Assembly: GCA_026225115.1 (NCBI GenBank)
Contig: JAMFSE010000144.1
Span: 1 to 64,000 of the forward strand
DNA length: 64,000 bases
Direction of reading: 5' to 3'
Origin: Rhodovastum atsumiense
GTDB lineage: Bacteria; Pseudomonadota; Alphaproteobacteria; Acetobacterales; Acetobacteraceae
In this document: piece by piece, positions 1-45,919 of the stretch
Layout: each line of letters opens with the position of its first letter
Position numbering within the stretch: the stretch's first letter is position 1
The notes under the pieces: model-generated
Database searches by the model: none
What the model was told of the DNA's origin: nothing
The model's input: the letters and a program-made list of their open reading frames with translations, nothing else
Made by a program: the position numbers and the translations under genes

Positions 1-381
1 GCCTGCACGCCCTGGGGCAACCCGACCCGCAATGTCTTCGGCTGGCAGCGCCCCTGCTATCTGCTGGGCGAGGGCTACGCCAAAACCTACAAGGAACTCA
101 TGGAGACGACCGAGTGGGATAAATACGGCGTCGGCAATTACGAAAAATGCGCCGACTGCATGGTGCATTCCGGCTTCGAGGCCTCGGCGGTCATCGACTC
201 CTTCAAGAAGCCCTGGAAACTTGCCGCGGTGGCGCTGAAAGGCATCAAAACCGACGGCGCCATGGCCAAGGACATTCCGCTCGATAAAGCCCGCAAGGCC
301 GACTTCGTGTTCTCCAGCCACGTGCAACAGAAAATGGCGGAAATCCACGCGAAGAAGAATGCGCCGCTGCCGGCTGAGTAA
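1..381 (+). CDS. hpnH: Adenosyl-hopene transferase HpnH, C-terminal part (5' end outside window)
   Basis: The reading frame is open from base 1 and ends at a TAA at 379-381, so only about the last 126 residues are seen. They contain the motifs NPTRNVFGWQRPCYLLGEGY and GNYEKCADCMVHSGFEA, which I recognise as the C-terminal end of HpnH. HpnH is a B12-binding radical SAM enzyme that joins the 5'-deoxyadenosyl group to diploptene, the first step towards C35 extended hopanoids. The radical SAM CxxxCxxC motif would lie upstream of the window. A palindromic repeat follows directly after the stop. An hpnG-like gene lies about 2 kb downstream on the opposite strand. Confidence 0.9.
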   Translation, partial: ACTPWGNPTRNVFGWQRPCYLLGEGYAKTYKELMETTEWDKYGVGNYEKCADCMVHSGFEASAVIDSFKKPWKLAAVALKGIKTDGAMAKDIPLDKARKADFVFSSHVQQKMAEIHAKKNAPLPAE

Positions 382-486: not shown

Positions 487-1101
487 GTGATTAATCTGGA
501 GGCCTACTCGGGTTCGCAGATATCCACGGCAATCCCAGACCTTGCCAGATTGCGCGTCGCCGTGTTCCGCGAATGGCCGTATCTGTACGATGGCGACGGC
601 GCCTACGAAGGTGGCTATATCGAGGTCTACGCGCGTTGCCCGGGCGTTGTCGTTTTTCTAGCGCGCAACGGAATGGATATTGTCGGCGCTTCAACCTGTC
701 TCCCACTGCGCGAAGAATCGGCTTCTATCCGCGCGCCATTTCAAGCTCGGGGGCTCGACGTAAATCGATTTTTCTATTTCGGAGAATCAGTTTTGCTGCC
801 GGCATTTCGCGGCCAAGGCGTTGGCGTGAAATTCTTCGAAGCGCGTGAACGCGCCGCGCGGGAAGCAAACGCCGATTTCGCGATTTTCTGTGCGGTGCGG
901 CGCCAGGATGATCATCCTGCGCGTCCCAAAAACAGCATCGATATGCCACGCTTCTGGCGGCAGCGCGGCTATGCGCCATTGCCCGGCATTTCCTGCCAAA
1001 TGGCCTGGAAAGAAATCTCCCAGGCCGAGCCGCTCAACCATGATCTCGATTTCTGGATCAAACCGCTCGGCGCCGCGCCAATTCCCGCAGGCCTCGCATG
1101 A
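487..1101 (+). CDS. GNAT family N-acetyltransferase
   Basis: This is a 204-residue protein with a GTG start. The acetyl-CoA-binding motif RGQGVG is at residues 108-113, preceded by FYFGESVLLPAF, typical of the GNAT fold. There is no signal peptide. It probably acetylates a small molecule or protein amine, but the substrate cannot be read from the sequence. Its stop overlaps the start of the carbon-nitrogen hydrolase by four bases, and a SnoaL-like gene follows 18 bases after that, so the three form an operon. From memory, homologues of these three genes are neighbours in other Proteobacteria. I do not know of a characterised function. The start is uncertain because no clear ribosome binding site is visible. 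Confidence 0.85.
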   Translation: MINLEAYSGSQISTAIPDLARLRVAVFREWPYLYDGDGAYEGGYIEVYARCPGVVVFLARNGMDIVGASTCLPLREESASIRAPFQARGLDVNRFFYFGESVLLPAFRGQGVGVKFFEARERAAREANADFAIFCAVRRQDDHPARPKNSIDMPRFWRQRGYAPLPGISCQMAWKEISQAEPLNHDLDFWIKPLGAAPIPAGLA

Positions 1102-1973
1102 GCAGCAAGCTACGCCTCGGCGTGCACGCATGGCAGGTCGCCCAGGTGACGACGCTCGAGGAATATGCGCAGCATCTCGATCACGTCGTTGCCGCTGGCG
1201 CCAAATCAGCAGAGTTGCTGCTGCTGCCTGAGTATTCCTGTATGGAGGCGGCAGCCGCGGTTGCCGATCAACCGACGGCGGCAGCCGAACTTGCCGCCGC
1301 ATGCCGGATCACAGACCGGTTACTGGAGATCATGATCGCCTGCGCGCAACGGCATAAAACATGGCTGATGCCCGGCAGCTTGCCCTATCACGCGGCAGGC
1401 AAAATTCGTAACCGGGCGCCTTTGATAAACCCCGCCGGAAAAATCGCCTTTCAGGACAAGCGCGTCATGACCCGCTTCGAATCGGAATCCTGGGGTGTGC
1501 AGGCCGGCGAGCCTCCCGGTGTCTTCAAGACGCCCTGGGGCACCATCGGCGCCTCGATCTGCTATGATTCCGAATTCCCCATGCTGGCCCGCGCGCAGGT
1601 TGAGCGCGGCGCCTGGCTGCTCCTGGTGCCTGCCTGCACGGATACGCTGCATGGCTTTAACCGCGTGCGCATCTCCGCTCAAGCGCGCGCGCTTGAGAAC
1701 CAATGTTTCGTCGCGCTCGCCCCGACGGTGGGCCTCGCCCCATGGTCGGCGACATTGGATGAGAATCACGGCCAAGCCGGAATCTACGGTCCGATCGACC
1801 GAGGTTTTTCGCCCGACGGCGTTATCGCGGAAGGCAGAATGGACGTGGCAGGCTGGGTATTCGCGACCCTCGACCCCATCGCGCTTACTACTGTGCGGAC
1901 TCAAGGCGCGGTGCTGAACCATGCGGATTGGCCGGGTGCGATTGCCGAGCCGAAATTCATCGATTTCCTCTGA
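1098..1973 (+). CDS. Carbon-nitrogen hydrolase (nitrilase superfamily)
   Basis: This 291-residue cytoplasmic enzyme has the superfamily's Glu-Lys-Cys triad in order: E45 in LLPEYSC, K121 in QDKRVMTRFE and C155 in SICYDSEFPM. Members hydrolyse amides or, less often, nitriles. The Lys and Cys contexts resemble amidases rather than true nitrilases. The start overlaps the preceding acetyltransferase gene (ATGA overlap), so the two are translationally coupled. One plausible idea is that the pair acts in turn on one amine or amide metabolite, but that is inference. It differs clearly from the second family member at 32035. Confidence 0.88.
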   Translation: MSSKLRLGVHAWQVAQVTTLEEYAQHLDHVVAAGAKSAELLLLPEYSCMEAAAAVADQPTAAAELAAACRITDRLLEIMIACAQRHKTWLMPGSLPYHAAGKIRNRAPLINPAGKIAFQDKRVMTRFESESWGVQAGEPPGVFKTPWGTIGASICYDSEFPMLARAQVERGAWLLLVPACTDTLHGFNRVRISAQARALENQCFVALAPTVGLAPWSATLDENHGQAGIYGPIDRGFSPDGVIAEGRMDVAGWVFATLDPIALTTVRTQGAVLNHADWPGAIAEPKFIDFL

Positions 1974-1991
1974 CTTCCCAAAGGTTCAACC

Positions 1992-2411
1992 ATGTCCGCC
2001 GCAGCTGCCCGCCAATTGATCGAGACCTATTACGCGATGTTCAATTCCGGCGACCGGGAGGCATTTCTAGACCTGCTGACCGAGGATGTCGTGCATGACA
2101 TCAACCAGGGCGGCCGAGAGGTCGGTGTACCCGCATTTCGCAGCTTCCTGATCCGCATGGACCGCTGCTACCGCGAGCAAATCAAAGGCCTTGTTGTCTT
2201 AACCGATGAGGCCGGCGACCGCGCCGCGGCGGAATTCACTGTGCATGGCGCCTACATCGATACGGACGAAGGGCTGCCGGCCGCCAGCGGCCAGACCTAT
2301 GTGCTGCCGGCCGGCGCTTTTTTCACGCTGTCGGACGGCAAAGTTGCCCGCATATCCAACACTTATAATTTGCCAGAATGGATCAGGCAGGTCATGGGCG
2401 TAAACCCGTAG
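1992..2411 (+). CDS. SnoaL / NTF2-like protein (ketosteroid isomerase-related)
   Basis: The 139-residue product has a small alpha+beta cone fold signature: TYYAMFNSGDREAFLDLL at the N-terminus, EDVVHDINQGG, then AAEFTVHGAY and LPAGAFF. These are typical of SnoaL-like NTF2 proteins, which bind small hydrophobic ligands and sometimes act as isomerases or hydrolases. An AAAGG sequence lies a short way upstream of the ATG. It is the third gene of the acetyltransferase / amidase operon and may bind or process the same metabolite. It ends three bases before the stop of the convergent hpnG-like gene. Confidence 0.85.
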   Translation: MSAAAARQLIETYYAMFNSGDREAFLDLLTEDVVHDINQGGREVGVPAFRSFLIRMDRCYREQIKGLVVLTDEAGDRAAAEFTVHGAYIDTDEGLPAASGQTYVLPAGAFFTLSDGKVARISNTYNLPEWIRQVMGVNP

Positions 2412-2414
2412 GGC

Positions 2415-3050
2415 TCATATCGTCCGCAATTTTCCAATCAACGCGGCACGCGCTTTGGCGGCATCCTGGCCAAGGGCAATCAGCGCGGGTATCTGACCCG
2501 GCTTTTTAAATACCGAGGCGAGGACAGACAAAAATCCGATCTCGCCGGCGCCGTTCAACGCAATGAGTGCGGCTGGCGGAAGGTTGCGCGAGGCCGGATC
2601 GGCCACCGCGCGCAGCACGGCGAACGGCAGTTTTCGGGCTGCCGCAACCCTGGCGACCGCACCGGATTCCAGGTCGATCGCTTCCGCATGATTCTGCGCA
2701 AACAAAGCCGCCTTATCGCCTTGCGTCTCGGCAACCCGTTCTGCGGACATCATCAGTTCTGCGTTGGACCCGCCGAGCCATTCGACGAGCGACGGGTCAC
2801 ATAAATAGATTTTGCCATCATCGACAACCGATTCCGGCACCAGAACAGCGCCAGGATGAAGTGCCGGATTCAATCCACCGGCAAGCCCAAAACTGACAAG
2901 TGCCGTCACCCCATCCGCAACCAGTTTTTCCGCCGCCCGACCAGCCCCAGCCGGAAACCCCCCGCCAACGCCGACCCGAACACCAAAACGCCGAAGCAAC
3001 TTCGCCTCGGCGCTAAGCCCAACCACAAACCCAATTTGAGAACGATCCAT
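2415..3050 (-). CDS. hpnG: Hopanoid-associated nucleoside phosphorylase-like protein (HpnG-like)
   Basis: This 211-residue protein belongs to the PNP/UDP phosphorylase superfamily (MTA/SAH nucleosidase-like). The early VGLSAEAKLL, the SFGLAGGLNPALHPGAVLVPE nucleoside-binding region and the AIDLESGAVARVAAARKLPFAVLRAVAD segment with its ribose-binding Glu fit HpnG. HpnG removes adenine from adenosylhopane to give phosphoribosylhopane, the step after HpnH. Having hpnH only 2 kb away supports the call. The usual adjacent, same-strand arrangement has been lost: three unrelated genes lie between and this gene is inverted. A generic nucleosidase is the alternative. Confidence 0.75.
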   Translation of the reverse strand: MDRSQIGFVVGLSAEAKLLRRFGVRVGVGGGFPAGAGRAAEKLVADGVTALVSFGLAGGLNPALHPGAVLVPESVVDDGKIYLCDPSLVEWLGGSNAELMMSAERVAETQGDKAALFAQNHAEAIDLESGAVARVAAARKLPFAVLRAVADPASRNLPPAALIALNGAGEIGFLSVLASVFKKPGQIPALIALGQDAAKARAALIGKLRTI

Positions 3051-3777: not shown

Positions 3778-3807
3778 GGATGGCCGGGTCAAGCCCGGCC
3801 ATGACGC
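3778..3807. repeat. Short CCGGGCTTGACCCGG-type palindrome downstream of pnp
   Basis: ATGGCCGGG, a short loop TCAAG and CCCGGCCATGA form a strong hairpin between the pnp stop and the dps start. I recognise this sequence as a common alphaproteobacterial intergenic repeat. It lies within the pnp 3' region, next to a copy of the large palindromic element, and may add to termination. Confidence 0.65.
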
Positions 3808-3845: not shown

Positions 3846-3905
3846 CATGCCCCAGACTCGCAGAAGTCTTTTTGCTTCTTTTTCTTCAGAAAAAGAAGTT
3901 CTTAC
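3846..3905 (-). repeat. Palindromic intergenic element, half copy 2 (after pnp)
   Basis: CTTCTTTTTCT and AGAAAAAGAAG arms at 3875-3898 are followed, in the pnp direction, by GCAAAAAGACTT. The element begins within a few bases of the pnp stop at 3907 and points away from it, as in the other copies. Confidence 0.85.
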
Positions 3906-9392: not shown

Positions 9393-9523
9393 AAGCAGTT
9401 CTTTTTTGAAAAAAAGAACCAAAAAACTTTCTTTACTCCGGGCCATGGGCCGTGACCGCGCCAACGCCCATGGCCCAGCATAAAAAAGTCTTTTTGCTTC
9501 TTTTCCTTTAGAAAAAGAAGTGC
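9393..9523 (-). repeat. Palindromic intergenic element, complete copy 3 (after mmsA)
   Basis: This is a complete copy. From the mmsA stop it reads AAGAAG-type hairpin, GCAAAAAGACTTTTTT, then a core with GGGCCATGGGC at 9440-9450 inverted at 9466-9476 (15-nt loop). A second hairpin of GTTCTTTTTT/AAAAAAGAAC type follows at the far end. It starts at the base next to the mmsA stop. Confidence 0.9.
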
Positions 9524-18645: not shown

Positions 18646-18716
18646 CAAGCACTTCATTTTTCTGCAGAAAAAGAAGCAAAAAGACTCTTATTTATTCTGG
18701 GATATGGGCTGTGGCC
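18646..18716 (+). repeat. Palindromic intergenic element, half copy 5 (after smpB)
   Basis: About 14 bases past the smpB stop are the hairpin arms CTTCATTTTTCT and AGAAAAAGAAG, followed by CAAAAAGACTCTTATTTATT and a remnant of the GGGATATGGGC core. Same orientation relative to the upstream gene as other copies. Confidence 0.85.
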
Positions 18717-22915: not shown

Positions 22916-22990
22916 CAAGTAAGGCCCTTCTTTTTCTGAAGAAAAAGAAGCAAAAAGACTTTTTTGAATTTGGAGCATGGGCGTTGGCTC
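22916..22990 (+). repeat. Palindromic intergenic element, half copy 6 (after rsh)
   Basis: CTTCTTTTTCT and AGAAAAAGAAG arms with a 2-base centre at 22928-22950 are followed by CAAAAAGACTTTTTTG and GGAGCATGGGCGTTGGC from the core. It starts four bases past the rsh stop and runs almost up to acpS. An in-frame ATG upstream of acpS belongs to this repeat. Confidence 0.85.
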
Positions 22991-37635: not shown

Positions 37636-37772
37636 TCCAAGCGGTTCTTTTTTGAAAAAAAGAACCAAAAAACTTTTGCTACTCTGGGCCTGGGGCGTTG
37701 GCGCGGACAACGCCCCAGGCCCAGCATAAAAAGTCTTTTTGCTTCTTTTTCTTCAGAAAAAGAAGGCCTTCC
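37636..37772 (-). repeat. Palindromic intergenic element, complete copy 8 (after the thiolase gene)
   Basis: This complete copy abuts the thiolase stop. The core is a perfect inverted repeat with 15-bp arms at 37686-37700 (GGGCCTGGGGCGTTG) and 37708-37722 around a 7-base loop. Both outer hairpins are intact (CTTCTTTTTCT type at the thiolase end and GTTCTTTTTT type at the scoA end). Confidence 0.92.
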
Positions 37773-45782: not shown

Positions 45783-45919
45783 GGGAAGCACTTCTTTTTG
45801 TGAACAAAAAGAAGCAAAAAAACTTTTTTATTCTGGGACTGGGGCGTGACGCCGCCAGCGCCCATGGCCCGGAGTAGCAAAAGTTTTTTGGTTCTTTTTT
45901 TCAAAAAAGAACTACTTTC
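45783..45919 (+). repeat. Palindromic intergenic element, complete copy 9 (after kdpE)
   Basis: The third complete copy starts six bases after the kdpE stop and points away from it. CTTCTTTTTGT/ACAAAAAGAAG forms the first hairpin, and the core reads GGGACTGGGGC and GCCCATGGCCC. The far arm has TCTTTTTTTC and GAAAAAAGA type sequences. It ends about five bases before the next gene start, leaving no clear ribosome binding site there. Confidence 0.9.

Follow-up and report, generated by a model that had tools for sequence, protein, structure and literature searches.

A conserved GNAT and amidase gene pair with an optional SnoaL-type partner in Rhodovastum atsumiense and other Proteobacteria

Three adjacent genes of Rhodovastum atsumiense (contig JAMFSE010000144.1, whose first 64,000 nucleotides we analysed and call the window) encode a GNAT-type acetyltransferase, an amidase and a SnoaL-type protein, and they raise the question of whether these products work together and, if so, on what. 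The initial annotation had described a tightly spaced or overlapping set, and our check of the open reading frames reproduced its gene boundaries, with all three genes on the plus strand in the order GNAT, amidase, SnoaL. The GNAT stop and the amidase start share an ATGA, which is a 4-base overlap between two separate ORFs, and an 18-base gap then leads to the SnoaL-type gene, so the tight spacing was borne out. The 3.67 Mb genome contains a single match to each of the three. The trio is flanked by the end of hpnH and a HpnG-like gene, beyond which lie dps and an ORF that we take, by eye, to be polynucleotide phosphorylase (Table 1). A promoter scan found none against 0.8 expected, and no PADLOC family matched at E≤0.01. 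The palindromic repeat TTCTTTTTCT-NN-AGAAAAAGAA occurs in seven window copies at ≤2 mismatches, with none in shuffled sequence, and at 105 exact places genome-wide; its first copy, between hpnH and the GNAT gene, may mark the end of the hpnH transcript. A further element, GCCGGGTCAAGCCCGGCCATGAC, has a single window copy with an inverted repeat and is presumably of a type common in alphaproteobacterial intergenic regions.

Table 1. Positions of the trio, its flanking genes and repeat elements within the window.
Feature	Position	Strand	Remarks
hpnH, 3' end	1-381		Upstream of GNAT; 121.8 bits to the end of TIGR03470
Palindromic repeat TTCTTTTTCT-NN-AGAAAAAGAA	391-412, 3876-3897, 9498-9519, 18654-18675, 22928-22949, 37743-37764, 45792-45813		
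Predicted GNAT-fold N-acetyltransferase	487..1101	+	204 aa; GTG start, matching the start of homologues
Predicted carbon-nitrogen hydrolase (nitrilase superfamily) amidase	1098..1973	+	291 aa; E45, K121, E128, C155
SnoaL/NTF2-like protein, TIGR02096 ('ketosteroid isomerase-related protein')	1992..2411	+	139 aa
HpnG-like gene	2415-3050	-	Downstream of SnoaL; 174.2 bits against a TIGR03468 cut-off of 187.1
GCCGGGTCAAGCCCGGCCATGAC	3783-3805		

The first gene product scored just below the gathering threshold of PF00583 in a Pfam search (19.4 against 20.7 bits), and comparison with PDB sequences gave no match. A fold search with its structural model (pLDDT 88.6) gave 667 matches in the PDB at E≤0.001, and every one of the 50 listed is an acetyltransferase entry, the best among those listed being PaiA (Z 17.8 over 165 residues, 2.7 Å). 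It also carries the CoA-loop motif R108-G-Q-G-V-G113, in which R108, G109 and G111 are kept in 171, 167 and 170 of 172 aligned rows, respectively, while G113 is invariant in a 16-row alignment and falls below 95% of the 172 rows. With both the modelled fold and an R-x-x-G-x-G CoA loop, the protein qualifies as a GNAT. Phosphinothricin and tabtoxin-resistance N-acetyltransferases appear among the listed structural matches and have this fold in common with it, although at ~10-15% identity they lie within the general GNAT background.

Assignment of the second gene product was more direct, with a match to PF00795 of 79.4 bits (E=3.6e-22; cut-off 23.2). Its model (pLDDT 93.3) is closest to mouse Nit2 (Z 31.7, 256 residues, 2.4 Å), followed by formamidases, yeast Nit3 and aliphatic amidases at Z 30-32. 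Nitrilase-superfamily amidases act through an acyl-enzyme on a cysteine, with one glutamate as base, a lysine at the oxyanion and a second glutamate for positioning. The initial annotation had noted an intact Glu-Lys-Cys triad, and this claim held across the 152 relatives scoring at least 225 bits, window included, which we term solo-type: numbered by the window protein, E45 is kept in 151 and K121, E128 and C155 each in all 152. Domain match, modelled fold and triad together place the protein in the nitrilase superfamily, which is marked by an alpha-beta-beta-alpha fold with this triad. Mouse Nit2, an omega-amidase, is also its top sequence match, at 23% identity, and the deaminated glutathione amidase model NF043013 matched at E 1.5e-14, its cut-off not being reached (53.8 against 500 bits).

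The third gene product belongs to TIGR02096 (115.9 bits, E=1.5e-33; curated cut-off 97.1) and also matches SnoaL_2 (E=2.3e-15). Proteins of the SnoaL type act on small molecules, which they isomerise, cyclise, hydrate or bind, and by analogy with its solved relatives, PDB entries 3f7x, 3i0y and 3f8h, the window protein would adopt this fold. Of these, 3f8h has, across 131 residues, the same sequence as the SnoaL of a megaplasmid-borne trio in Ruegeria sp. TM1040, and 3f7x is closest to that of a Pseudomonas mosselii trio. All three entries are titled 'putative polyketide cyclases', where 'polyketide cyclase' is a label; to our knowledge, no activity has been measured for any of them or for TIGR02096.

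The initial annotation stated that homologues of the three genes stay together in other Proteobacteria, and asked whether the trio is limited to close relatives. It is not: we collected 73 distinct trio loci, window included, with named alpha- and gammaproteobacteria among their carriers, although 73 is an upper figure since some genomes may repeat named records (three duplicate extracts were removed). Three layouts occur, namely SnoaL>GNAT>amidase (55 loci), a divergent SnoaL (10) and the window's GNAT>amidase>SnoaL (8), and the statement therefore stands. A scan of named genomes gave at least 558 relatives, of which the 80 top-scoring were kept; a GNAT lay within ~1.1 kb at 74 of these loci, a SnoaL at 45 and both at 44. 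The amidase was present in 30 of 60 genomes of the window's family, which we took as Acetobacteraceae; at the 29 family loci other than the window a GNAT adjoined it in 26, the remainder being L006 (at a contig edge), L008 and L031, and SnoaL was present in six. GNAT and amidase are the commoner core, and SnoaL is an optional part. Distances in the gene trees correlate (r 0.43-0.65, Mantel p≤0.001, over 76 rows that include 3 duplicates and with species kinship ignored). The trio occurs on annotated plasmids of two Ruegeria, of Aeromonas and of Aquicella, the GNAT-amidase pair on one of Xanthomonas and the amidase alone on one of Novosphingobium. Two trio loci, L035 and L056, come from MAG records whose titles name Acidobacteria and Acidimicrobiia; in the tree the amidase of L035 falls among those of the window's family, and transfer or mis-binning is therefore likely for these records. 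A description of the trio as a unit was not found in the open-access full-text literature (PMC).

Association of the genes was also examined at the level of whole genomes, using 249 genomes of the window's phylum (its own included), taken as Pseudomonadota, and 321 of the class of genome G248, taken as Gammaproteobacteria. Most of these represent different genera; the Fisher tests ignore species kinship, and the searches score best first-look candidates only, such that absences may be missed matches. In the phylum sample SnoaL, GNAT and solo amidase were found in 12, 18 and 15 other genomes, respectively, and all 12 with SnoaL also held GNAT and solo amidase (p 2e-16 and 5e-18, kinship ignored); the genes were linked in nine of them, and in three (G212, G148 and G090) SnoaL lay on a separate contig. 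In the class of G248, GNAT was present in 31 genomes and solo amidase in 16, all 16 of which were GNAT-positive. Fourteen of the 15 GNAT-positive genomes without solo amidase contained a lower-scoring relative whose frame spans 517-578 residues, whereas just 35 of the 290 GNAT-negative genomes had any relative (p 2e-11, kinship ignored), and SnoaL was found in 11 of the 16 GNAT-positive genomes with solo amidase and in 0 of the 15 without (p 7e-5, kinship ignored). Fifty further GNAT-positive genomes from both classes yielded a solo amidase in 22, adjoining the GNAT in every case, another relative in 22 and none in 6 (E≤1e-35). The genes are less tightly associated in the class to which the window belongs, and the trio is not obligate: 7 of 12 new SnoaL genomes there had SnoaL beside GNAT with no solo amidase found, of which four held a distant amidase relative, one a fusion-size frame and two neither. 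In five genomes (G382, G489, G576, G560 and G820; loci L198-L202) we also observed a distant stand-alone amidase relative (E 1e-36 to 1e-47) unlinked to the GNAT and SnoaL genes that are present there too.

The longer frames have the size of proteins annotated 'GNAT family N-acetyltransferase/carbon-nitrogen hydrolase', in which, as in the trio, the GNAT part precedes the amidase. These bifunctional proteins are single polypeptides, whereas the window has two ORFs, and unlike them the trio has a SnoaL partner. The profile of the solo amidases aligned with that of five fusions, all taken from the phylum sample, at E 3.7e-50 over 277 columns, and 15 more fusion-size frames have the amidase domain in their C-terminal half or third. 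In this amidase domain the E-K-E-C residues are each kept in 26 of 27 rows. At the position of R126 all 26 lower-scoring rows have proline against arginine in an 18-row solo alignment, although over the 152 solo rows R126 is below 95%. Comparison of the fusion's GNAT with the window-type GNAT gave an hhalign probability of only 15% (E 0.0018), over 80 columns around the CoA motif. Two genomes, G104 and G769, hold fused and solo forms together. We take these bifunctional proteins to be 'branch 12' of Pace and Brenner, and YhcX to be their Bacillus member. In one study (PMC4558970), YhcX is a predicted nitrilase, and disrupting yhcX reduced IAA by 24% in strain SQR9 and to 50% in strain FZB42, which is weak evidence. 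From the profile comparisons, the trio amidase is the free-standing relative of the fused amidase, and the trio GNAT appears to be at best a remote relative of the fusion's GNAT half. That the fusion is found so often in GNAT genomes without a solo amidase suggests a GNAT that needs an amidase of that branch. The Nit1C cluster combines nitrilase and MSMEG_0567-type GNAT families of its own with a radical SAM protein and other partners; no Nit1C-type NCBIfam model matched the window genes at E≤0.01, library coverage of those models being uncertain.

The window's copy of the trio looks acquired. Of 38 genomes of its genus, 24 (its own included) have the amidase; the congener proteins are 46-55% identical to that of the window, whereas identity rises to 65-67% in four other genera of the family. 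In all 11 congener loci examined, of 23 (L218-L228), a GNAT-amidase pair directly precedes lpxB, with SnoaL absent from the stretch examined. The same arrangement was seen in nine further loci (L033, L034, L036-L038, L041 and L043-L045), eight of them chosen because lpxB had already been seen there. In the tree, the window amidase sits in a clade (100/98) with five trio-order loci of other genera, one of them truncated by a contig edge ahead of its GNAT, and the congener amidases form a separate clade (100/99). The simplest reading is that the lpxB-linked pair was lost and the trio gained between hpnH and hpnG; an old duplication with loss could also account for the window copy. This placement, distinct from that of the pair in its genus, was overlooked in the initial annotation.

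The trio is real, conserved and made of known families, and its products probably act on one metabolite in a shared pathway, as was first proposed. That part of the proposal is strengthened by the behaviour of the trio as a unit, by its three layouts and by co-occurrence of the genes where unlinked; what it had missed is the GNAT-amidase core, the fused relative and the pair before lpxB in the window's own genus. By analogy with the chemistry of these families, the shared substrate may be an amide or an amine. We envisage that the GNAT would transfer an acyl group from acyl-CoA onto the amine of a small metabolite, and that the amidase would open an amide bond, either in this metabolite or in what is made from it. 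Since the E-K-E-C tetrad is conserved, the amidase would be expected to use the usual superfamily acyl-enzyme mechanism, passing through an acyl-Cys155 intermediate with E45 as base, K121 at the oxyanion and E128 for positioning. The SnoaL-type protein may bind or rearrange an intermediate, consecutive action on one metabolite being suggested by the gene linkage.

Our preferred reading, held tentatively and with a little under even confidence, is a conserved module of GNAT and stand-alone amidase, the latter elsewhere fused to a GNAT, with SnoaL in some lineages, which would detoxify or repair a damaged or toxic small amine or amide rather than support growth on a nutrient. We prefer it to catabolism because transporter and catabolic genes have no set position in which they recur, and because those neighbours that do recur are specific to single lineages and for the most part housekeeping genes (lpxB; rpoS-nlpD; UPF0262/LMW phosphatase...infA/Maf/RNase E/G). 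Clustering of neighbours at the 80 named loci, around amidase-less GNATs and around fused or distant amidases, with the larger clusters and part of the smaller ones named, gave no conserved fourth gene. Generic neighbours at the 80 named loci were ABC ATPases and GGDEF/EAL proteins (13 each, with five genes each within 3 kb), LysR regulators (nine, three within 3 kb) and SDR proteins, and at L007 a different LysR follows the trio. Downstream of lone GNATs nothing recurred across lineages as a replacement for the amidase, the genes there being HMGL-like, SDR, BCCT, ABC transporter, LuxR-type regulator and ribonucleotide reductase genes.

A catabolic operon, in which, in line with the shared pathway first proposed, the trio would free ammonia or carbon from an amide, an acylated amine or a derivative of an amino acid taken from the environment, is unlikely but retains an appreciable chance. 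The closeness of the amidase fold to Nit2/omega-amidase, formamidase and aliphatic amidase is compatible with it, as are several transporter genes: the GNAT is followed by a BCCT gene in L170 and by a glycine-betaine-type ABC operon in L175, SnoaL is followed by an ABC permease gene in L006, and in Ruegeria pomeroyi an amine ABC transporter lies upstream of the trio, separated from it by two genes. However, BCCT and the L175 substrate-binding gene each occur in 1 of 212 loci and the L175 permease in 2, at no fixed place, and 13 loci have a generic ABC ATPase no more than 3.5 kb from the GNAT, both orientations being represented; a betaine transport theme was dropped on these counts. A threonine/hydroxyaspartate-dehydratase-like PLP gene near an unlinked SnoaL would also fit catabolism, being found in three of the five genomes read (L112-L114, from two families, with neighbours named via a GC3-based gene caller) and absent in L229 and L230, the latter a 5.4 kb contig. 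Its best NCBIfam match is BhcB, at 369-405 bits against a cut-off of 550, and a DUF218 gene lies between it and SnoaL in L113 and L114; near a complete trio, though, such a dehydratase is found in L132 only, 5.8 kb away.

A link to aldehydes, in which the module would clear an adduct that formaldehyde or a related carbonyl forms with a metabolite bearing an amine or thiol, for instance glutathione, is improbable. Five loci (L035, L061, L084, L123 and L135) have frmA, for glutathione-dependent formaldehyde dehydrogenase, within ~2.1 kb, where we estimate ~0.3 such loci among ~180 (taking one frmA per 4.5 Mb and 3.5 kb each side); fghA accompanies it in L084, and frmR, frmA and fghA are all present on the Aeromonas caviae plasmid of L135. 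In addition, a DJ-1/PfpI gene follows in L117, L118, L193 and L072, and among the 80 named loci, kept as the top-scoring of at least 558 relatives, 16 bear titles of methanotrophs or methylotrophs. Against this, frmA was tested only after its sighting in L135 and was found in 0 of 60 loci in L138-L197, L191 has one fghA fragment >6 kb away, flanks are short in L003-L031, and the four DJ-1 loci are a single lineage. Comamonas and Diaphorobacter clusters, moreover, hold the frm genes with a LysR (69% of the query) and have no trio gene named. Hitchhiking of unrelated genes through vertical descent, which would fit the pair before lpxB in the window's genus and many relatives and the trio between identical flanking genes in two Ruegeria, is highly improbable given three gene orders, flanks that differ by lineage and the different placement of the window copy, and is largely refuted by co-occurrence of the unlinked genes.

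Returning to detoxification or repair, a more specific and quite improbable version is an unrecognised metabolite-repair pathway of the GNAT and a solo or fused amidase, with SnoaL as the third step, whose targets would be adducts derived from reactive carbonyls or enamines on an amino compound or on glutathione. If true, it would supply a first function both for TIGR02096 and for the nitrilase branch that comes with a GNAT, which is not known to have an established substrate. The trio also ties three deposited SnoaL structures that bear guessed names to a GNAT and an amidase, and the standing of the three families as one unit, supported even where unlinked, points to joint assays and to suitable genomes for them. 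As observations on individual loci, the L135 trio (NZ_CP068231.1 18845-31690) lies between a LysR gene and a cluster of frmR, frmA, VOC, DUF3422 and fghA, and the DJ-1/PfpI gene of L117, L118, L193 and L072, the last from Pseudomonas, stands either after a GNAT with the amidase absent or after a GNAT-amidase pair.
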